From Natronosalvus vescus (GTDB taxonomy: Archaea; Halobacteriota; Halobacteria; Halobacteriales; Natrialbaceae): a stretch of 64,000 bases of DNA. The stretch covers positions 2,728,001 to 2,792,000 of the forward strand of contig NZ_CP099546.1 of NCBI RefSeq assembly GCF_023973145.1. Direction: 5' to 3'. This document shows, piece after piece, positions 4,539 through 27,528 of this stretch. The position numbers and the translations under genes were made by a program. Each line of letters begins with the position of its first letter. The first letter of the stretch is position 1. The notes beneath the pieces are model-generated. The model worked only from the letters and a program-made list of their open reading frames with translations. It had not been told where the DNA came from and did no database searches.

Positions 4539-4811
4539 TTACTTCGTCAGCGAGACCAGCACGAGAATCAGCCCGCTCGAGACGATGACCGCCTGAATGA
4601 GGCCTGCAGAGAGGATCGACGTGCCAAAGACCAGGTAGATGAGTCCCTCACAAATCGCTCCCGCGCCGATGAAGACGAACCCGGCGGAGACGTACAGCAT
4701 CGGTTCGCGACCGTTGCGACGGTAGCCGTGGTAGGCGAGGTAGGCGACGGCGAGGCTTAACACGAGCGTAATCAGTTTCGCGAGTACGAACGGCGCCTCG
4801 ATCGAACTCAT
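4539..4811 (-). CDS. DUF7521-like three-helix membrane protein
   Basis: This 90-aa membrane protein has three hydrophobic helices (about 8-27, 39-61 and 66-88) and a short basic loop after the first. The start codon overlaps the stop of the upstream winged-helix gene (ATGA), so the two are translationally coupled. Such regulator/membrane pairs are common in haloarchaea and the protein fits the family I know as DUF7521. No enzymatic residues are visible. It may be a partner or target of the regulator, possibly a membrane sensor; this is inference from coupling alone. Confidence 0.75.
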   Translation of the reverse strand: MSSIEAPFVLAKLITLVLSLAVAYLAYHGYRRNGREPMLYVSAGFVFIGAGAICEGLIYLVFGTSILSAGLIQAVIVSSGLILVLVSLTK

Positions 4812-5182
4812 CGGTCGCCTCGTAATTCGTCCCACAGCGCCGTAAAGTTGTCAGCGAGTTCGTCACGCGTCTCGAGCGTGAGCGTCAACTCCCCGCCCGT
4901 GAGGCTGACGTGCAGTCCCTCGAGGACGGTCTCGAACTCGCTTCTGTGCGAGCCGTCGGGCCCGATCGTGGTGCGTTCCTCGAGGAGGTCGTGTTCCTGT
5001 AACATCGACACCCGTCGATAGATGGTCGCGAGCGAGGCGTCACACGCGTCGCTCAGCGCTTTTGCGGTCATCGGTTGTCGATCCGCCTCGAGCAGTATCT
5101 GGCGCGCGTAGTCGTCCGCGAGTACTTGGAAAATCTCCGACGACTCCGACGACCCACCGTGCGCGGTTCCCTTCGAATGCAC
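4808..5182 (-). CDS. Winged-helix (ArsR-like) transcriptional regulator
   Basis: The 124-aa regulator has a winged helix at about residues 15-85, including LSDACDASLATIYRRVSML, a helix-turn-helix recognition segment, followed by a C-terminal beta-rich part. I prefer the GTG at 5182 over the TTG at 5236 because TTATTTG on the minus strand lies about 25-31 bases before the GTG, which fits a leaderless promoter, and because a 17-bp palindrome (5221-5237) would otherwise lie inside the coding region. It is coupled to the membrane protein gene and divergent from the carbamoyltransferase gene. It is the best local candidate for binding the palindrome, a version of which recurs at 10069. Confidence 0.78.
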   Translation of the reverse strand: MHSKGTAHGGSSESSEIFQVLADDYARQILLEADRQPMTAKALSDACDASLATIYRRVSMLQEHDLLEERTTIGPDGSHRSEFETVLEGLHVSLTGGELTLTLETRDELADNFTALWDELRGDR

Positions 5183-5220: not shown

Positions 5221-5237
5221 TTTGCCTGGTCAGCAAA
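5221..5237. promoter_or_regulatory. Palindromic operator, copy 1
   Basis: TTTGCCTGGTCAGCAAA is an imperfect palindrome between the divergent regulator and carbamoyltransferase genes. With flanking bases, 5217-5238 matches 10065-10086 at 19 of 22 positions. Two further inverted repeats follow towards the carbamoyltransferase: CTGGT/ACCAG at 5244-5260 and TACCCT/AGGGTA at 5266-5279. Confidence 0.55.
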
Positions 5238-5298: not shown

Positions 5299-7020
5299 AT
5301 GACTGACTATCTGCTCGCATTTAAACCCGCGATCGGTCTCTACGGACAACACGACCCGAGTGCCGTCCTCTTCGAAGACGGCACGCCGGTGTTCGGTGTC
5401 GAGGAAGAGCGCTACACGCGGGAGAAACACGCCACCGAGACGTTCCCCGAAAACGCGATTCGAGCGTGCCTCGAGTATCGCGACCTCCACCTATCGGACG
5501 TCGACCGGATTCTGCTGCCGTACGATCCCTCCCTCCGTAGCGAGATTACCGGGCACTACCTGACCGACGCGATACGCGTCCCCGGCATCGTACGGAAAGC
5601 GTCGGCGCTCGAACACACCCTCGTCACGCAGGTGCGCAGCCGGTTCGTCCCGACCCGTCAGATCGAGTCCCGCCTCGAGGAGATCGGCACGCCGGTACCG
5701 CCGGTCGAAACGCTCGCACACCACCGCTGTCACGCTGCCAGTGCGTTCCACCCGTCTGGGTTCGACGAGGCCGTCGTCCTCACGATTGACGCCAAGGGGG
5801 AGTACGATTCGACGGTCGTCTGGTACGCCACACCCAACGGGCTCAGGCGAATACGGACGTACGATCACCCAAACAGTCTGGGCCTCCTTTTCGCCATCGT
5901 CACGGAGTTCCTCGGCTACAGGATGTTCAACGGGGAGGGGAAGGTGATGGGGCTCGCTCCCTACGGGGAGGACAACCCGCAGATCGAGCGCGTCCTTCGC
6001 GATCTAATCGAGACCGGCGTCGACTACGACGTCACCGAACTCACCAAACGATGGGGGACGGGCTACGGAATCGAACGGCTCGAGGATGCCTTCGGACGCT
6101 CGCGAAACGAGACGCGCGGGGAGTTCGACCAGTGGGAGAAAGACCTCGCCCACACCGTCCAGAAACTACTCGAGGAGACGGTCGTCGATATCGTCGAGGA
6201 CGCAGTAAGACAACTGGGCACTGCGAACGTCGCCCTGGCCGGCGGCGTCGCCCTCAACTGCAAGCTCAACAAGTACGTCCGGGAGTCCCCGGCGGTCGAC
6301 GACGTGTTCATCCAGCCGGTCGCCCACGACGCGGGGCTCGCACTGGGTGCCGGCTGGGCCGAGCAACGCTCCGACGCGGTCGACCGGCAGACGACCGTCT
6401 ACCTCGGCCCGTCCTACGACACCGAGGAGATTCGAGAGACCCTCGAGACGAACAAGATCGCCTACACGGAGCCGAACGACCTCGAGCGCTACGTCGCCGA
6501 GCGACTGGCCGACGGACAGCTCGTCGGCTGGTTCCAGGGACGGATGGAGATTGGGCCGCGTGCGCTGGGTAGTCGAAGCATCCTCGCCGATCCCAGAACG
6601 GCCGCCTCGCGCGACCGGGTCAACCGCTTCGTCAAGCACCGCGAGGAGTGGCGTCCGTTCGCCCCGTCGATGCTCGAGGAGGCAGCCCCGGAGTACCTCG
6701 TCGACGGCGGGCCCGCACCGTTCATGATCGACGCCTACGACACCAACCCGGACAGGGTGGACGACCTCGAGGCCGTGATCCACCCCGCTGACGATTCGAC
6801 GCGACCACAGACCGTTCGCGAGGAGCAACATCCCCGGTACTATCGACTCATCTCGGAGTTCGCGGACATCACCGGCGTCCCGGTCGTGCTCAACACCTCG
6901 TTCAACGACCACGCCGAACCGATCGTCCGGACGCCGACACACGCGATCAAAGACTTCTACGGGATGGGGCTGGACGTGCTCGTGCTCGAGGATCTCGTGG
7001 TCGAGAAGGGGTCATCGTAG
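5299..7020 (+). CDS. NodU/CmcH-family carbamoyltransferase
   Basis: The 573-aa protein belongs to the family that makes carbamoyl adenylate and transfers the carbamoyl group to a hydroxyl or amine of a small molecule or glycan. The N-terminal ASKHA-like domain carries HHRCHAASAF around residue 141, which contains the metal-binding histidines, and a GGVALNCKLN motif near 315. The C-terminal domain has RMEIGPRALGSRSI at 415-428 and NTSFND near 532. The length is typical. The 5' region contains three inverted repeats between 5221 and 5279, so expression is probably controlled. No sugar-nucleotide or antibiotic biosynthesis genes adjoin it, so the acceptor is unknown. Pairing with the divergent regulator is the only contextual clue. 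Confidence 0.88.
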   Translation: MTDYLLAFKPAIGLYGQHDPSAVLFEDGTPVFGVEEERYTREKHATETFPENAIRACLEYRDLHLSDVDRILLPYDPSLRSEITGHYLTDAIRVPGIVRKASALEHTLVTQVRSRFVPTRQIESRLEEIGTPVPPVETLAHHRCHAASAFHPSGFDEAVVLTIDAKGEYDSTVVWYATPNGLRRIRTYDHPNSLGLLFAIVTEFLGYRMFNGEGKVMGLAPYGEDNPQIERVLRDLIETGVDYDVTELTKRWGTGYGIERLEDAFGRSRNETRGEFDQWEKDLAHTVQKLLEETVVDIVEDAVRQLGTANVALAGGVALNCKLNKYVRESPAVDDVFIQPVAHDAGLALGAGWAEQRSDAVDRQTTVYLGPSYDTEEIRETLETNKIAYTEPNDLERYVAERLADGQLVGWFQGRMEIGPRALGSRSILADPRTAASRDRVNRFVKHREEWRPFAPSMLEEAAPEYLVDGGPAPFMIDAYDTNPDRVDDLEAVIHPADDSTRPQTVREEQHPRYYRLISEFADITGVPVVLNTSFNDHAEPIVRTPTHAIKDFYGMGLDVLVLEDLVVEKGSS

Positions 7021-7092
7021 CGTCGCTGGTTCGGTCGCCTGTTCGAGTCGTCCGACATCACCACACGATTTCTCGGTTCGAACCGACTGCGA

Positions 7093-7698
7093 TCAGCCGG
7101 GATCGCTGCTCGAGTCGATTTCCGGATCGCTCTCGGGGGGCGTCACGCCGAGTAGCCCCTCCACGAAAGCGGCGATGTCGGCGGCGAACGCCTCGACTTC
7201 GTTCCAGTCGGTGAACTCGATGTCGCCCGCTGGGTCGGGATCGGGTGGATCCTCGACCGTTCGCTTCGCAATTTGTTTCATCAGAAGTCGTTTGAGGAAG
7301 CCGTACTCCGAGTAGCGCAGCGCCCCGCCGAACAGCCCGATTCGGTCGGGATGCCAGCCCGTCTCCTCGATGAACGTCTCGACGTAACCTGCGGCCTGTT
7401 CGGCTCCCTGCTCGTCGGCAGAGGAGAGCGATACCTGGAAAAACGCCGTCGGCATCCCGGCCAGCGTATCTCGGTTCACCTGTACGAACTTCCTCACTGT
7501 AGATTGCTGTTTTCCGGCGTGGATGGACGACCCGACGAGTACCGCGTCGACATCCTCAAGCGCGACGTCGCCGTTCCGGACGCTCACGTCGACCGTCGTC
7601 GCTTGGTGTCCACGATCGGTGAGAACGTCGGCGATTCTGGACGCTACCTTCGCAGTCTGGCCTTCTCCAGTTCCGTAGACGATGTAAAACGAGCGCAT
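7093..7698 (-). CDS. Flavodoxin-domain protein (HemG-like)
   Basis: The 201-aa protein starts with a flavodoxin FMN-phosphate loop (YGTGEGQTAKVA, residues 8-19). It has an AVLVGSSIHAGK strand-loop near 53 and continues like menaquinone-dependent protoporphyrinogen oxidase HemG and its archaeal relatives (FGGALRYSEYGFLKRLLMK near 123-141). It probably binds FMN and carries electrons in the cytoplasm; a role in porphyrin oxidation is possible but not shown. The C-terminus ends in an acidic low-complexity tail. It is monocistronic, convergent with the carbamoyltransferase and divergent from the DUF2270 gene. Confidence 0.8.
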   Translation of the reverse strand: MRSFYIVYGTGEGQTAKVASRIADVLTDRGHQATTVDVSVRNGDVALEDVDAVLVGSSIHAGKQQSTVRKFVQVNRDTLAGMPTAFFQVSLSSADEQGAEQAAGYVETFIEETGWHPDRIGLFGGALRYSEYGFLKRLLMKQIAKRTVEDPPDPDPAGDIEFTDWNEVEAFAADIAAFVEGLLGVTPPESDPEIDSSSDPG

Positions 7699-7877
7699 GG
7701 GACACTCGAGGGGACTACTCGATCGAGGACGATAAAGGAAGGAGGCCAGCTATCGTCGACGATTGATGCCCGACTCGACCGGTGGCGTTCCCACAATCCG
7801 GGTCGCTCGAGACACCCTCCTCCCTAAATCCGGGGGACGTTATATCGCATCGCCGGTGGAAGGACGACCGATCGACG

Positions 7878-8642
7878 ATGCCCGAGACTTCCGACGACGG
7901 AACCGACACCGCTGGTAGCGGAACCGACAGTTCCGCCGACGGAACCGACACCGTCGACGAGGAGTCACCGGACGGCGAACTGGGTGCCAGACTGAGCGAG
8001 GACGAATCGGATCTCCAGTCGATTCTCGGCCACGCCTACCGTGGGGAACTCGACCGGGAGACGACCTGGCGGTCGCGGCTCGACCAAACGACCACCTGGA
8101 GCGTTACCGTCATGGCCGCTATTCTGACGTGGGCGTTCTCGAGCACTGACAACCCCCACTACGTACTCCTCGTTGGCGTCCTCGCGGTTGGACTGTTCCT
8201 TCTGATCGAAGCACGCCGGTACCGAGATTACGACGTCTACCGGGCGCGGGTACGACTGTATCAGCAGTATTTATTGGCGAACGCGCTGGATCCGTCGGAC
8301 ACGCTCGAGCGGGAGGACTGGCGAACCGAACTCGGCGACGATTATCGGCGCCCAACGCTCAAAATCTCGCTGTTCGAGGCGGTGGCGAACCGACTCCGAC
8401 GAATCTACCTCGCCCTGGTGAGCGTGCTCTGTCTCGCCTGGCTCTTCCGCGTGACGGCGTTTCTCGCCGATCAGCGCCTCCCGGAGTCGGCTTCGATCGG
8501 GACGGTTCCGGGTACCGTCGTCATCGCGGTTGTCGTCCTCGGCTACGGATCTCTCCTGGCGATCGTATTCTGGCCACACGAACGTGAGGCGAAAGGGGAG
8601 TTCCGAGATACCGAAATCGCCGACTGGAAGGATCGGGAGTGA
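7878..8642 (+). CDS. DUF2270 membrane protein
   Basis: The 254-aa protein has an acidic Thr/Asp/Ser-rich N-terminal region (about 1-45), then a DUF2270-type core with HAYRGELDRETTWRSRLD near 55-72. The core is followed by paired hydrophobic helices (about 80-115) and two more near 185-230. The function of the family is unknown; topology suggests an integral membrane protein with a cytoplasmic acidic head. I chose the ATG at 7878 because the upstream in-frame extension is not protein-like and a TATA-like GTTATATCG lies about 35 bases before it. The N-terminal DGTDTAGSGTDS-type repeats are low complexity. Confidence 0.8.
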   Translation: MPETSDDGTDTAGSGTDSSADGTDTVDEESPDGELGARLSEDESDLQSILGHAYRGELDRETTWRSRLDQTTTWSVTVMAAILTWAFSSTDNPHYVLLVGVLAVGLFLLIEARRYRDYDVYRARVRLYQQYLLANALDPSDTLEREDWRTELGDDYRRPTLKISLFEAVANRLRRIYLALVSVLCLAWLFRVTAFLADQRLPESASIGTVPGTVVIAVVVLGYGSLLAIVFWPHEREAKGEFRDTEIADWKDRE

Positions 8643-8759: not shown

Positions 8760-9320
8760 TTACCGACGGCACCGCCGACACGTACGTCTGTGCCGGACGA
8801 CTATCAGCCCCGCGAGTATCGCCACCGAGAGTGCCCCGAGAATGGGACGGTACGGATCGAAGTACGTCATCAGGGTGGAGGAGCCGAACAACACCAGCAG
8901 GAACGCGTTACAGGTCGGGCAACCGACCGCCAGGAAGCCGCCGATCAGGCCGACGAACGCGCCGCGATCGGATTCGGTCGCGTCATCCCTCGCCGTGACG
9001 TTACCTGTCGTTCCGCCGGCCGTCGCGTCGTCAGATGTCGTTCCGGTTCCAGTAATTTTGTCACCCGTCTCGAGTTCGGATCCTGCGTCGTTCACCGTGA
9101 TGGAAACCCGTTGCGTTGCGTACCCCCCGGCTAACAGCGCCGTCAGCGTCAGGAACAGATATTCGACCGGCGTCCGGGGAACCATCCGCATATAGAACGG
9201 GTTTGGGATGAGGCCCGTGACGAACCCGAACAATCCGAACACGCCGACGGCGACCAGCGCTCCCAGACTGATGGCTCGTCGACCGGGTCGAATCGGGCGA
9301 CACGCGTAGTCGTCGGTCAC
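8760..9320 (-). CDS. Membrane protein with a GCPTC cysteine pair
   Basis: The 186-aa integral membrane protein has hydrophobic segments near residues 18-38, 46-66, 130-155 and 160-178. Its key feature is VGCPTCNAFLLVLF: a CxxC pair at the start of a membrane helix, resembling the reversed Cys pair of the preceding gene. A second CxxC (TCRRCRR) lies in the basic C-terminal tail. I place the start at the GTG at 9320 because it overlaps the stop codon of the previous gene (GTGA); a longer form from 9347 is possible. No family name is recognised. The CxxC position suggests thiol-disulfide exchange or copper binding at the membrane surface. This is inference, supported by the divergent DsbA-like gene. 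Confidence 0.75.
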   Translation of the reverse strand: MTDDYACRPIRPGRRAISLGALVAVGVFGLFGFVTGLIPNPFYMRMVPRTPVEYLFLTLTALLAGGYATQRVSITVNDAGSELETGDKITGTGTTSDDATAGGTTGNVTARDDATESDRGAFVGLIGGFLAVGCPTCNAFLLVLFGSSTLMTYFDPYRPILGALSVAILAGLIVVRHRRTCRRCRR

Positions 9321-9865
9321 GTCGCCCCCTCCGTTCCGAGCCGGCACCGTTCAGGATGGCCTGCCCGCCCTAAGAAGAAGAGGATGAGCGCCAATCCGGC
9401 GATCCGAAGGAGCGCACCTTCGTATGGGAGCATCGCCAGCCCGCCGGCGAATCCGAGAAAGCCGAGCAGGCCCGCACCACAACTTGCACACCCCGACGCG
9501 AGAAGACCGGGGAGCACGCCCGAGAGGTCGGCGAGACTCGAGGGGCCGACGATCCGAAGCTGTGCGACGACGTTGACGACCGCGACGCCCGTCAGGAGGG
9601 CGTAGAGGACGACGATGCCGAGGCCCGTCCAGCCGTCCGTTCGGTAGATGGTCTCCGTGAGCGAGCGAAGCACGTAGTCGAACCAGTGGAGGCCGTCCCC
9701 GAGCATCTGGATCGTGAACTCCGGCATCGTACTCAACACGAGGACGACGTAGGTCACGGCGGTGACGACCACCAGGCCAGCCGTCCCCCGCCAGGATTCG
9801 AACGGATACGTGACGGCCTCGTGGAGGTTCCTGACGAAGCCGTCGATCCGTTCGCGCCAGTTCAT
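9317..9865 (-). CDS. Membrane protein with a GCASCG cysteine pair
   Basis: The 182-aa protein has about five hydrophobic segments (roughly 25-47, 75-100, 105-125, 130-150 and 155-172). A short amphipathic N-terminus precedes them. LLASGCASCGAGLLGFLG places a CxxC inside or at the edge of a membrane helix, as in the next gene. It is translationally coupled on both sides: its ATG overlaps the stop of the 66-aa gene (ATGA) and its stop overlaps the GTG of the following gene. The shared Cys-pair architecture suggests the two larger proteins work as a pair. They look like a redox relay or metal-handling unit, but no described family is identified by eye. The tail ends in a short hydrophilic stretch. 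Confidence 0.78.
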   Translation of the reverse strand: MNWRERIDGFVRNLHEAVTYPFESWRGTAGLVVVTAVTYVVLVLSTMPEFTIQMLGDGLHWFDYVLRSLTETIYRTDGWTGLGIVVLYALLTGVAVVNVVAQLRIVGPSSLADLSGVLPGLLASGCASCGAGLLGFLGFAGGLAMLPYEGALLRIAGLALILFFLGRAGHPERCRLGTEGAT

Positions 9866-10062
9866 CGAACCCCCACCTCGTAGCGGGAATCGTCGGTCCG
9901 TCCCACGACCTCGATCAGTTTCACAAACGCGGTCAGTGGAGTCTCGAGCGACGAAACTGGTGCGGTGACCGGGAAAACGGCCTCGGGGGGCGAACAGGTA
10001 CCTGTCTCGCCGATCGACGTCACTGTTAGGTGGGAAAAGGGGGTCGATCCCCAAATGTCCAC
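9862..10062 (-). CDS. Small 66-aa protein, first gene of the Cys-pair operon
   Basis: A GTG-started reading frame of 66 codons ends with a four-base overlap (ATGA) onto the next gene, and that gene is in turn coupled to the third. The coupling is the main evidence that it is translated. The product is soluble, beta-rich in appearance, with a single Cys (C23). It matches no family I know. The palindrome at 10069-10085 lies just upstream of the GTG, and a TATA-like TTCTAAA lies further upstream at about 10097-10103. The operator would therefore sit between TATA and start codon, a repressor-like position for the whole operon. Confidence 0.55.
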   Translation of the reverse strand: MDIWGSTPFSHLTVTSIGETGTCSPPEAVFPVTAPVSSLETPLTAFVKLIEVVGRTDDSRYEVGVR

Positions 10063-10068
10063 CCGCGA

Positions 10069-10085
10069 TTTGCTGGGCCAGCAAA
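10069..10085. promoter_or_regulatory. Palindromic operator, copy 2
   Basis: TTTGCTGGGCCAGCAAA is a perfect 8-bp inverted repeat around one central base. It lies in the divergent promoter region between the Cys-pair membrane operon and the DsbA-like gene. It matches copy 1 at 5221-5237, including the flanking GCGA and A. Confidence 0.6.
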
Positions 10086-10134
10086 ACGGCGATTCCGTTT
10101 AGAACCGGGAGTATGTATGGGTGGTGAGAACGAT

Positions 10135-10863
10135 ATGTCGCTGGATCAGCCGTCGCGTCGAGCCGTCGTCGCCGGAGCTATCTTCGCCCTCGGTGGTGGG
10201 GGTGCCTACTACCTCTCACGCGCTGAAAACGACCCAGGTCACGCCGTGGATCCCGAGGTACACGCGAGCGATGAAATGTCTGACCTGGGCGTCGAACTGC
10301 GTGGTAAACCGATTCTGGGATCGCCCGATGCGCCGCTCGAGATCTACTACTGGACGGACTTTCAGTGTCCGTTCTGTGCACAGTTCGAACACGAGTCGCT
10401 GCCCGCCGTCGTTCGCGACCACATCGAACCGGGGCGGGTTCGCATGGTCGTCATCCCGTTGCCCTACTTCGGCGAGGACTCGATGACGTCGGCAGTCGCC
10501 TCGCGGTGCGTGTTCGAACACGTTCGAGGGGACGACCGCTCGACGTACTGGGACTGGCACGCGGCGGTCATCGATGCACAGGGTGAACGCAACTCGGGGT
10601 GGGCGGGGGCTGACAACCTCGTCGAGATCACCCGGTCGGTCGATGGCGTCGACGCGGGGGGACTCGAGGCGTGTCTCGACGACCAGCGGTCGACCTACGA
10701 GAGTGAGACCGAGGCCGACGCGGGGCAGGCACGGTCGTTCGGCGTCACGGGGACGCCGACGTTCGCCGTTTTCGACCCCGAGACGGAACGGGTCGGGACG
10801 CTCGTTGGGGCGCAGCCGCCGGAACGGTTCGACGAGGCGATCGACCGAATCGAGAACGAATAG
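10135..10863 (+). CDS. DsbA-like thiol-disulfide oxidoreductase, membrane-anchored
   Basis: The 242-aa protein starts with RRAVVAGAIFALGGGGAYYL, an Arg-pair plus hydrophobic segment that looks like a signal anchor or Tat-type signal. It is followed by a DsbA-type thioredoxin fold: YWTDFQCPFCAQFEHESLP carries the CPFC active site near residue 80, a helical insertion follows, and GTPTFAVF contains the conserved cis-proline near 206. It should act outside the cytoplasm, making or isomerising disulfides. I chose the ATG at 10135 because GGTGGTGAG precedes it at Shine-Dalgarno distance; an ATG at 10117 is an alternative. It is divergent from, and probably co-regulated with, the Cys-pair operon. 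Confidence 0.87.
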   Translation: MSLDQPSRRAVVAGAIFALGGGGAYYLSRAENDPGHAVDPEVHASDEMSDLGVELRGKPILGSPDAPLEIYYWTDFQCPFCAQFEHESLPAVVRDHIEPGRVRMVVIPLPYFGEDSMTSAVASRCVFEHVRGDDRSTYWDWHAAVIDAQGERNSGWAGADNLVEITRSVDGVDAGGLEACLDDQRSTYESETEADAGQARSFGVTGTPTFAVFDPETERVGTLVGAQPPERFDEAIDRIENE

Positions 10864-24098: not shown

Positions 24099-25205
24099 CT
24101 ACAACGCCTCGAGCAGCGCGTCGATGTCGTCTCTGGTGTTGAACGCGTGCACTGACACCCTGACCGCCTCCGGGTACGGCAGCGATCTGACGACGACGTC
24201 CTGGTCGGCGAGTCGTTCGACGGTCTCCACTGGGTCGTTGACGTCGATCGTGACGAGGCCGGATTCGAACGATCGCGGGCTGAGCAAGGCGCTCTCGTCG
24301 ATCCCGTCTTTCAGGTACGCTGTGAGTTCCGCGATCCGGGATTCGATGGCGTCCGTACCGAGTTCGTGGTGGAGGTCGATGGCGGCCTCGAGCCCGGCGA
24401 AGGGTGCCGGACTGGTCGTTCCGACCTCGAACCGTCCCGCGCCGGGGGCGTACTCGTAGTCTGCGGCGTAGGCCTCGACGACGCTTCGGAAGCCGATTTC
24501 GTGGGGGATGCAATCGTGCTCGAGCCCCTCCCGAACGTAGAGGAAGCCGGCGCCGAACGGCCCGAGGAGCCACTTGTGGCCGGCTCCGACGACAAAGTCC
24601 GCGCCCCATTCTGTGACGTCGACGGCGACCTGACCCGGCGACTGGACGGCGTCGACGAGTACCAGTGCGTTAGCATCGTGGGCGACGTCGACGATCTCGC
24701 TGATCGGTACCTGGGTGCCGTGTGTCCAGGTAATCGAACTTACGACCAACAGCGTCGCGTCCTCGGCGACGGCTTTGACGGCCTCGAGATCCACGCGGCC
24801 GCGATCGGTTTCGAGGACGCGGACGTTGATTCCCCGCGTGTCCGCGAGTAGTTGCCACGGCAGGATGCCGGCTGGGTGCTCGAGATCGGTTCGAACGACG
24901 ACGTCGTCCTCGTCCCACTCGAGGGCGCCGGCGACGCGGTTGATACCGTCGGTCGTGCTCTGGGTGAGCGCGATTTCAGACTCTTTTGCGCCGAGCAACT
25001 CGGCCACGGTGGCTTTGGTGGCGTCGTACTGGCTGCCGACGGCCTGGTACATGCCCTCGGCCATCGGGGCGTCGTACTCGTGATGTTCGAGGGAGGCAGT
25101 TGCCGCGTCGACGACCTGCCGTGGGCTCGGCCCACCGGCACCGGTGTTGAGGTAGATGCCGTGATCGAGAGCGGGAATCCGCGTTCGAAGTATGTCGAAG
25201 TCCAT
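24099..25205 (-). CDS. Class V aminotransferase-fold PLP enzyme
   Basis: The 368-aa protein has the class V aminotransferase/cysteine desulfurase fold. It starts with YLNTGAGGPSPRQVVDA, and STTDGINRV binds the PLP phosphate near 84. VLVDAVQSPGQVAVDV carries the conserved Asp, and GAGHKWLLGPFGAGFLYV contains the Schiff-base lysine near 206. No active-site Cys loop typical of desulfurases is evident, so an isopenicillin-epimerase-like or aminotransferase role is more likely. It is convergent with the M20 gene. Substrate unknown. Confidence 0.87.
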   Translation of the reverse strand: MDFDILRTRIPALDHGIYLNTGAGGPSPRQVVDAATASLEHHEYDAPMAEGMYQAVGSQYDATKATVAELLGAKESEIALTQSTTDGINRVAGALEWDEDDVVVRTDLEHPAGILPWQLLADTRGINVRVLETDRGRVDLEAVKAVAEDATLLVVSSITWTHGTQVPISEIVDVAHDANALVLVDAVQSPGQVAVDVTEWGADFVVGAGHKWLLGPFGAGFLYVREGLEHDCIPHEIGFRSVVEAYAADYEYAPGAGRFEVGTTSPAPFAGLEAAIDLHHELGTDAIESRIAELTAYLKDGIDESALLSPRSFESGLVTIDVNDPVETVERLADQDVVVRSLPYPEAVRVSVHAFNTRDDIDALLEAL

Positions 25206-25255
25206 TGTGGTGTACTCTCTGAGTGGATGATTATGAATGGTGGTTCCGCGGCCGT

Positions 25256-25846
25256 TTAGACGCCGGGGATCGGCGCGAGCGTGATGCCGTACATCGCGGC
25301 GATCGTGATCCCGATGACGCCGACGACGACCGGCGGCCAGATGCGGGTGCTCGAGATGGTCGGCGCGCTGTGGCCGCCACCGAGGTACTTCACGATGACC
25401 TCGATCGTAAACAGGCTCGTCGTCGCGGCCGCCGAGAGCATACAGAACGGACAGATCGCGCCGATAACGCCCAGCTGGAGGTAGACGAAGTACGCCGACG
25501 CACCGAGGCCACCCAGCGTGATCAGGAAGATCCCGCGCTCGAGCAGTTCGTGTTTAGTCTCGAGCCAGAGACCGCCCATGACGATCATCGTTACGTAGTA
25601 GCCGGCGCCGAGGAGGGCGAGCGGGATCGGGCCGACGTACGCCCACGCGCTGGTGATGACGGCCATGCTGCCTTCGGGTTCGATGCCGGTCGGGAGCGGG
25701 AGCGCCCAGAAGTGGACGGCAGTGAGGAAGATGCTGGCGCCCCAACCGATGATCGCGATGCCCAGGAACGCGCCCAGGAGTTTGTTCACGTACGGCTGTC
25801 CGGTATAGGATTGCGTCGCAGTGCTTGTCGAAACGGTATCGCTCAT
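25256..25846 (-). CDS. VKOR-family membrane protein
   Basis: The 196-aa integral membrane protein has four to five helices and the VKOR signature ICPFCMLSAAATT near residue 129, where the CxxC would react with a quinone or partner thiol. The two extra loop cysteines of bacterial VKORs, normally before the second helix, are missing: the N-terminal half has no Cys. That suggests a different electron partner. A second oddity is its lack of a fused thioredoxin domain. TATA-like CTTAAG at 25874-25879 lies about 30 bases upstream. It may reoxidise exported DsbA-like proteins such as the one at 10135. Confidence 0.87.
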   Translation of the reverse strand: MSDTVSTSTATQSYTGQPYVNKLLGAFLGIAIIGWGASIFLTAVHFWALPLPTGIEPEGSMAVITSAWAYVGPIPLALLGAGYYVTMIVMGGLWLETKHELLERGIFLITLGGLGASAYFVYLQLGVIGAICPFCMLSAAATTSLFTIEVIVKYLGGGHSAPTISSTRIWPPVVVGVIGITIAAMYGITLAPIPGV

Positions 25847-25873
25847 TGTATCTGGATCTCTCTTCCGTTTCAC

Positions 25874-25879
25874 CTTAAG
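25874..25879 (-). promoter_or_regulatory. TATA-like element of the VKOR gene
   Basis: CTTAAG lies 28-33 bases before the ATG at 25846. Confidence 0.5.
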
Positions 25880-26118
25880 TCTTTGCACGAACGTTACAAT
25901 ACCACACAATACTAAATGCTATTGGCTCGACGACTAGTATCACGAGCATATACACTAAACGGTTAAACTCGGCGCTTTATTCCCGGTTGTACGATGCGAG
26001 CAGTGCTATGTAAATTTTAGCTCAGGACTCCAATTGTGGTGTTATAACAATATTATCGCTTCGAATTCGATACGGCGGATCAACCACGGTGATGCTCACA
26101 TCGGGTCGCCGACGGTGA

Positions 26119-27144
26119 TCAGTCGCTCGAGTTGGCCATCGGCGTGACGGGTTCGATGACGGGATCGGTGGTCTCGAGCCAGTCCTCGGCGTCGAGGGCG
26201 GCCATACTGCCTGTCCCGGCCGCGGTAATCGCCTGCCGATAGTCGGGATCCATCACGTCGCCGGCACCGAAGACGCCCTCGACGGCCGTCTCGGTCGTCA
26301 TCCCGTCTCGCGTCACGAGGTAGCCCTCGTCGTCGAGATCGACCGACGTTGCCTCGAGGAAATTCGTGTTCGGGACGTGGCCGACACCGTAGAAGACCCC
26401 GCCGACCTCGACGTCTTCGTGCGTGACGTCCTCGTCGAGTTTGGCCGTCGGGTGTCCGTCGGGGTGACTGACGAGCGTCGCACCCGTCACGCCGGTCTCC
26501 TGAGAGCCGTGGATCTCGAGCAGTTCGGTGTTCCACCGAAATTCGATCGAGTCGTGCTCGAGGGCACGTCGGGACATGATGTCCGAGGCCCGGAGTTCGT
26601 CCCGGCGGTGGACGACCGTGACGCTGTCGGCGAACTTCGCGAGGAAGAGCGCCTCCTCCATCGCACTGTCGCCGCCGCCAATGACGAGGACGTCGTCGCC
26701 GCGATGGAACGCGCCGTCACACGTCGCACACGTCGACAGTCCGTACCCCATCAGTTCGTCTTCGTTCTCGGCACCAACCCAGCGTGCGCTCGCGCCGGTA
26801 GCGACGATCAGCGACCGCGTTCGGACGGTGTCGCCGGTCGAAAGCTCGAGTTCGAATGGGCGCTCCTCGAGGTCGGTCCCCTCGACGGTGCCGTGGGTGA
26901 ACTCGGCGCCGAATCGACTGGCCTGTGCTTTGCCCTGCTGGATCAGCTCCATCCCGCCGACGCCCTCGGGGAAGCCGAGGTAGTTCTCGACCTCCGTGGT
27001 GAGCGTCAGCTGGCCGCCGGGTTCCGGTCCCTCGAGGACGAGGGGCTCGAGGTCGGCGCGGGCGGCGTAGACGGCCGCCGAGAGACCCGCCACGCCGGAG
27101 CCGACGATGACGATCTCGTGGACGTCGTCTCGTGTGTCGCTCAT
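26119..27144 (-). CDS. trxB: Thioredoxin-disulfide reductase
   Basis: The 341-aa flavoenzyme has an FAD-binding GSGVAGLSAAVYAARA (residues 15-30), the redox motif CATCDGAFHRG near 137-147, a second Rossmann motif VIGGGDSAMEEALFLAKF for NAD(P)H, and the C-terminal FAD motif GVFGAGDVMDPDYRQ. It passes electrons from NAD(P)H to thioredoxin in the cytoplasm. Its ATG overlaps the stop of the thioredoxin gene (ATGA), so the two are one operon expressed from the TATA box before trxA. Confidence 0.95.
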   Translation of the reverse strand: MSDTRDDVHEIVIVGSGVAGLSAAVYAARADLEPLVLEGPEPGGQLTLTTEVENYLGFPEGVGGMELIQQGKAQASRFGAEFTHGTVEGTDLEERPFELELSTGDTVRTRSLIVATGASARWVGAENEDELMGYGLSTCATCDGAFHRGDDVLVIGGGDSAMEEALFLAKFADSVTVVHRRDELRASDIMSRRALEHDSIEFRWNTELLEIHGSQETGVTGATLVSHPDGHPTAKLDEDVTHEDVEVGGVFYGVGHVPNTNFLEATSVDLDDEGYLVTRDGMTTETAVEGVFGAGDVMDPDYRQAITAAGTGSMAALDAEDWLETTDPVIEPVTPMANSSD

Positions 27145-27503
27145 TCGCTCGTGTAACCCTCGATCAGTGTCCGCAGCTGTGGTTCGGGCAGGACGCCGAC
27201 GTGCTGTTCGACCTGTTCGCCATTGGCGAAGACGACCATCGTCGGCACGCCGCGCACGCCGAACTCGGCGGCGAGTGGCTGGTGCTGGTCGACGTCGACC
27301 TTGGCGATGACGGCGTCTGTCTCGTCAGCGAGCCCCTCGAGGACGGGGTCGAGCATCTTACACGGGCCACACCAGGTGGCGAAGAAGTCCACGAGGACGA
27401 CCTCGTGGTCACTCACGACGTCCTGGAGGTGCGCGCCGCCGTCGATATAGACGGGTTCGTCAGTCGACTGTACCGGTGATCCGCTGTGTGCATCTGTTGC
27501 CAT
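27141..27503 (-). CDS. trxA: Thioredoxin
   Basis: The 120-aa protein has the canonical FFATWCGPCKMLDPVLE motif (Cys pair near residues 46-49), the VDVDQHQPLAAEFGV strand and RGVPTMVVFANG with the cis-proline. There is no signal peptide, so it works in the cytoplasm. The N-terminus has a short polar extension of about 20 residues. TTTAAA lies about 26-31 bases before the ATG, matching a leaderless message. It is coupled to trxB. Confidence 0.93.
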   Translation of the reverse strand: MATDAHSGSPVQSTDEPVYIDGGAHLQDVVSDHEVVLVDFFATWCGPCKMLDPVLEGLADETDAVIAKVDVDQHQPLAAEFGVRGVPTMVVFANGEQVEQHVGVLPEPQLRTLIEGYTSE

Positions 27504-27528
27504 CACGACCTCGTATGGGTCGAGACCG

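Follow-up and report, generated by a model that had tools for sequence, protein, structure and literature searches.

A conserved pair of cysteine-bearing membrane proteins beside a haloarchaeal DsbA-like gene: a possible Scs-like envelope thiol module

Little is known about the route by which reducing power gets to the outer face of the membrane in archaea. In bacteria, the DsbA-like protein ScsC, which binds Cu(I), is held reduced by ScsB (PMC8900818). Our literature search found no paper dealing with haloarchaeal DsbA together with disulfide bond formation and none on the set formed by a DsbA family protein, CcdA, copper, and multicopper oxidase. We describe here a locus of Natronosalvus vescus in which a DsbA-like protein (D) is encoded opposite two membrane proteins carrying Cys pairs (A and B). 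The window analyzed is a stretch of 64,000 nucleotides (62% GC), and the closest relatives of the locus belong to the Natrialbaceae. Gene calls and clusters were made with our own script and match public annotation where loci were compared. The features are as follows.

4539-4811, minus strand: DUF7521 small membrane protein (PF24365, E = 3.8e-17), paired with the wHTH gene
4808-5182, minus strand: wHTH regulator (HTH_20) of ~124 aa, candidate operator reader, with a single conserved Cys in CDASL
5221-5237, strandless: imperfect second operator copy with 2 mismatches, flanked by the carbamoyltransferase and wHTH-DUF7521 genes
5299-7020, plus strand: NodU/CmcH-type carbamoyltransferase, with the operator 78 bp upstream here and ~61 bp in relatives
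8760-9320, minus strand: protein B, 186 aa, GTG start, MerT-like hairpin (probable), GCPTCN in TM3, DPYRP turn, C-terminal CRRC
9317-9865, minus strand: protein A, 182 aa, predicted four-TM membrane protein, GCASCG (C126, C129) in TM3, C174 after TM4
10069-10085, strandless: operator TTTGCTGGGCCAGCAAA, between D and A, palindrome kept in relatives
10117-10863, plus strand: protein D, DsbA-like with a thioredoxin fold, exported or membrane anchored, with CPFC and a GTP cis-Pro loop
11374-11727, plus strand: Csp-like Cys-rich four-helix-bundle copper protein, neighbor of D, DUF326, Csp1 model E = 4.5e-9 (below cutoff)

On the minus strand, a GTGA overlap joins the stop of A to the start of B, and D is divergent from both. 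In many relatives, the ATG of B lies across the stop of A (e.g., A at 7001-7549 and B from 7546 in L038), so that this coupling recurs. The three-gene operon proposed in the initial annotation is reduced to A and B. Its third member, a 66-aa open reading frame (9862-10062), was rejected as a gene because it has no relatives even at E = 0.1, because D and A are separated by only ~100 to 110 bp in many relatives, leaving little or no room for it, and because open frames at the same place in other loci encode unrelated peptides.

Protein D is a thioredoxin-fold, DsbA-like protein, as had been read from the sequence: it matches Thioredoxin_4 (E = 3.3e-19), carries the CPFC motif, and has an export signal that was read by eye as a twin-arginine-type motif or, in many relatives, as a lipobox. 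C84, C87, and the cis-Pro P214 are invariant among 32 members, and relatives align starting at the Met at 10135. These CPFC and GTP features fit an oxidase and a reductase alike. The top NCBIfam match of D is the Rcas_1661 thioredoxin-like (seleno)lipoprotein family (NF041057, E = 8.1e-27), but its score of 94 against a cutoff of 190 makes it a nonmember by that model.

The co-occurrence with DsbA, whose absence would have refuted the initial annotation, was clearly found in the relatives. D immediately adjoins A in 51 of the 61 loci with a called A (30 on the same strand and 21 divergent) and lies within two genes of it in 55; in L038 and L048, it is farther away but keeps its own copy of the operator. 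Even A relatives that match only weakly (E near 1e-4; e.g., L083 to L090, L092, and L095) directly follow a DsbA-like gene. The distances of D and A are correlated at 0.95 (n = 56 loci; the highest of 1,000 permutations reached 0.28) and at 0.89 among distant pairs only, a mirror-tree correlation that partly reflects shared vertical descent. As side observations, two DsbA-like genes flank A in one haloarchaeon (L099, 6183-8283), and in several relatives a large gene, bordered on both sides by an operator copy, separates D from A (L038, 5003-6574; L107, 4992-6884, annotated as a polysaccharide deacetylase).

Both A and B are publicly annotated as "hypothetical protein," and their initial placement outside described families stood up. 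Neither they nor the 66-aa frame reached a Pfam or NCBIfam cutoff, a PDB sequence search returned no notable match to A or B, and when 34 diverse members of A and 23 of B were scanned with Pfam, the matches were few and weak, with no consistent family; those to DUF5676, DUF3561, holin, and similar families were rejected as weak, inconsistent, and under cutoff. The AlphaFold models of A and B have low confidence (pLDDT of 45.8 and 59.4). Relatives of A occur in 63 of 125 genomes of the family and in 116 of 391 genomes of the class, the latter count taking in weak matches of ~E 1e-4, and relatives of A and B were absent from the viral contigs searched.

The CxxC pairs first reported, GCASCG in A and GCPTC in a hydrophobic segment of B, are both present, but that inventory overlooked the second, C-terminal CxxC of B as well as C174 of A. 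Among 61 A proteins, C126, C129, and C174 are retained in 60, 61, and 60, respectively; in B, CPxCN is invariant (47/47), and the C-terminal Cys pair is looser (34/47 and 42/47). Hydropathy and positive-inside K/R counts predict four helices in A with both termini inside, which would place C174 at the cytoplasmic end and the CxxC within TM3.

Compared with the known membrane partners of DsbA-like proteins, A matched neither VKOR (PF07884; 0 matches in the Pfam scan of 34 members, hhalign E = 0.53 against haloarchaeal VKOR), nor DsbB (PF02600; no Pfam match, hhalign E = 0.63 against 8 haloarchaeal DsbB), nor CcdA/DsbD_TM (PF02683; no Pfam match). A first hhalign alignment of A and of B with CcdA at E = 1e-20 was rejected, since what aligned was the uneven C-terminal end of the CcdA set; once the CcdA profile was trimmed, the signal was gone (E = 0.71 for A and 0.56 for B), and the earlier match was thus an artifact. 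Within the N. vescus genome, neither DsbD_TM/CcdA (PF02683) nor DsbB was found; a search for MerT gave no match, but its control was silent as well. A VKOR is encoded in this genome, inside the window (25256-25909). VKOR-bearing and A-bearing genomes overlap, VKOR being found with or without A, and no simple complementarity between the two was seen; DsbB is common outside the family of the window and rare within it. The idea that A plainly replaces DsbB or VKOR, put forward at the outset, is therefore unlikely, as the genome already has a VKOR. This VKOR homologue, on the minus strand, seems to be without the loop Cys pair and to carry CPFC only, as do haloarchaeal relatives (L109 to L111). 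It lies in a minus-strand series (24099-27506), ~13 to 17 kb from D, of class V aminotransferase-like, VKOR, thioredoxin reductase, and thioredoxin genes, identities that were assigned by eye except for VKOR.

In profile-profile comparison, A and B align over their C-terminal halves, at E = 8e-6 first and at 6e-8 to 6e-7 with more members, and we regard these halves as homologous with moderate confidence. The B profile in turn aligns with MerT at E = 1.4e-7 and 2.2e-6, for a MerT set of five sequences only. The scores of 47.6 and 39.7 compare with at most 28.5 and 28.1 in 60 block-shuffled MerT controls, and reversed MerT controls also score below the real match. This similarity goes beyond composition and spans the helix with the cysteines, the D/EPYRP turn, and the later cysteines. 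B is probably MerT-like, again with moderate confidence. At the level of family models, the B protein of the window has no Pfam match to MerT (PF02411), and weak matches, under the curated cutoff, occur in 2 of 23 haloarchaeal B members (best E = 0.017); in a mainly bacterial B set, Pfam gave weak MerT matches in 6 of 14 (best E = 9e-4) and NCBIfam a best E of 9.5e-5. A compared directly with MerT gave E = 0.13 and is linked to it only via B.

The bacterial relatives of B are plasmid borne and come from Actinomycetota, Alphaproteobacteria, and Thermomicrobium. They are found in a Trx-CcdA-B operon in Arthrobacter, in a DsbA-CcdA-B operon in Pseudonocardia, opposite CcdA-Trx in Rhodococcus, in a DsbD-DsbA-B operon in Azospirillum, and with TlpA in Mycolicibacterium, with DsrE, DUF302, rhodanese, TauE, multicopper oxidase, copper-binding protein, DUF305, and L,D-transpeptidase genes as neighbors; some loci, in Sinorhizobium, Thermomicrobium, and Natrononativus, have no such B partners. 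On bacterial plasmids (L105, L114, L115, and L118), genes for envelope enzymes (L,D-transpeptidases, lnt/lgt, or mrdA) are found close to B. L,D-transpeptidases are inhibited by copper, and copper drives nonnative disulfides (PMC9302775).

The shared palindromic operator noticed at first sight is real and conserved. TTTGCTGGGCCAGCAAA (10069-10085) is a perfect palindrome whose arms are 8 bases long. No other exact match to TTTGCTGnnnCAGCAAA occurs in the 3.84-Mb genome, and a palindrome between D and A is kept in nearly all divergent loci. In relatives, the operator stands ~50 bp before D, ~60 bp before A, ~55 bp before the wHTH gene, and ~61 bp before the carbamoyltransferase gene; in this window, its distance to A is ~204 bp. 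With up to 3 mismatches, TTTGCTGnnnCAGCAAA has 5 matches in the window against 0.7 expected. Its recurrence at fixed distances before D, A, wHTH-DUF7521, and the carbamoyltransferase probably marks a small regulon, and we infer that the wHTH protein is the operator binder. The carbamoyltransferase gene (5299-7020, plus strand) has an operator in common with D-A in many relatives. In L050 (~7681-8223), B and the wHTH regulator appear to be joined in one frame (210-aa call), probably via a deletion. Altogether, the existence of the locus, its conservation, the linkage of D to A, and the operator are established with high confidence, and the initial view is upheld in that the membrane thiol system is conserved, coregulated, linked to a DsbA-like protein, and without a counterpart in the family libraries that were searched.

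We propose, with a probability of roughly 0.4, that D, A, and B form a stress-regulated envelope thiol module similar to bacterial ScsB-ScsC or Trx-CcdA, in which A reduces D and B handles soft cargo. D would be an exported DsbA-like thiol protein that is kept reduced. A would carry reducing equivalents from cytosolic thioredoxin to C174, then to C126/C129 in TM3, and finally to D, thus filling the place taken by CcdA or DsbD/ScsB in bacterial operons. B would act as a MerT-like cysteine hairpin for a soft cargo, most likely Cu(I) or alternatively sulfane sulfur, and the thiols of this cargo would be those that D keeps reduced. Acting at TTTGCTGnnnCAGCAAA, the wHTH protein would control D, A-B, its own wHTH-DUF7521 pair, and the carbamoyltransferase. 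The topology, the direction of the electrons, and the identities of cargo and regulator are all inferred, and our confidence in the direction of electron flow, the cargo, and the signal is low. The order D-A-B of several haloarchaea (L077, L079, L080, and L101) compares with Trx/DsbA-CcdA-B in bacteria (L104, L106, and L117), so that A occupies the CcdA position. With no DsbD_TM found in the genome, a reductive relay is our preferred reading. This equivalence is positional only, as A has no detectable homology to CcdA or DsbD, and A would not be a strict substitute for CcdA, which lies near A-D in some haloarchaea (L108).

Other readings share much of this evidence. A and B could be soft-metal transporters, that is, MerT-like importers or channels loading cuproproteins, with D as an extracellular Cys-pair metallochaperone comparable to MerP and metal passing from D to the TM3 cysteines and then to the C-terminal cysteines. 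The B-MerT match does keep the order of helix Cys pair, D/EPYRP turn, and following Cys pair, the bacterial B set has its weak MerT matches in Pfam and NCBIfam, and the neighbors include a Csp-like protein, multicopper oxidase, and copper genes. Moreover, transport by MerE and MerT depends on a pair of cysteines in TM helix 1 (PMC5715351), a precedent that leaves room for such a role. We nevertheless consider transport unlikely: D has a DsbA-like thioredoxin fold and not the HMA type of MerP, neither MerA nor MerP stands beside A-D in annotated loci, the direct comparison of A with MerT gave no clear match, and the CcdA or DsbD proteins of the bacterial operons are redox proteins, not transporters. 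In another reading, the cargo would be sulfur: D and A/B would move persulfide sulfur through the membrane, or reduce it, to serve TusA, DsrE, rhodanese, and MBL-fold (ETHE1-like) enzymes of the cytoplasm. DUF302, DsrE, TusA-like, rhodanese, TauE, and MBL-fold neighbors recur in haloarchaea and bacteria, and in the window, D and an MBL-rhodanese gene are 1.7 kb apart. However, copper genes recur as well, and several A-D loci (e.g., L083 to L090) have neither gene set in the clusters examined, which makes a dedicated persulfide relay quite improbable. The context genes as a whole (Csp-like protein, which adjoins the locus in several relatives too, multicopper oxidase, DsrE, DUF302, rhodanese, TauE, and MBL-fold) mix copper with sulfur, and no single one fixes the cargo.

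Least probable in our view is an oxidative role, in which A would reoxidize D and pass the electrons to menaquinone, a third way of doing what DsbB and VKOR do. A four-TM CxxC protein closely paired with a DsbA-like protein would suit it, as would the fact that DsbB was not found in this genome. Yet a VKOR is encoded in the same genome and window and occurs with or without A, and A has one CxxC and one further Cys where VKOR and DsbB have two redox pairs, and these two facts make this role less likely. C174 is also predicted to be cytoplasmic by positive-inside counts, A is unlike the DsbB and VKOR profiles, and the bacterial B operons contain reductive CcdA or DsbD.

Returning to the reductive module, D-A-B looks like an undescribed relay guarding the cell surface against copper- or sulfur-type thiol stress. 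More tentatively still, A may represent a new transmembrane thiol relay based on a hairpin of the MerT type, unrelated to CcdA/DsbD, DsbB, and VKOR, that powers an exported archaeal DsbA-like protein, and B an unrecognized third component of Trx-CcdA/Scs copper-thiol operons. The conserved A-D pair and its defined operator offer a direct genetic handle on envelope reduction in archaea. The "hypothetical protein" B, for its part, suggests an overlooked component of the copper and persulfide operons of exported thioredoxins and CcdA, and it ties two fields together by setting a MerT-like cysteine hairpin beside exported thioredoxins and CcdA in archaea and bacteria.

Each of the known systems is matched in part. 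Like MerT/MerTP (PF02411), B has in its C-terminal half a Cys-pair helix, a D/EPYRP turn, a second helix, and a Cys pair; unlike MerT, it begins with an additional pair of helices, carries CPxCN where MerT has CC, lacks the third MerT helix, stands next to neither MerP nor MerA, and scores only weakly with the family models. With the quinone-linked oxidases VKOR and DsbB, A shares small size, four TMs, a CxxC, and pairing with a DsbA-like partner, but neither their profile similarity nor a second Cys pair (its conserved cysteines being C126, C129, and C174 only), and VKOR is separately encoded in the genome. The CcdA-thioredoxin systems (SoxV/SoxW, CcdA-TlpA) resemble the locus by the order Trx/DsbA, membrane relay, B, as in Arthrobacter and Pseudonocardia, whereas A has its CxxC in TM3 and one Cys after TM4. 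As for ScsB-ScsC, the haloarchaeal partner A differs by having no CcdA/DsbD homology, a DsbD-type gene occurring only with a bacterial B relative, and by the addition of the MerT-like B. In both systems, nevertheless, a membrane thiol protein is genetically linked to an exported DsbA-like protein in a copper-gene context, and in Azospirillum an ScsB-like gene (DsbD_N, DsbD_TM, Trx) precedes DsbA and B.
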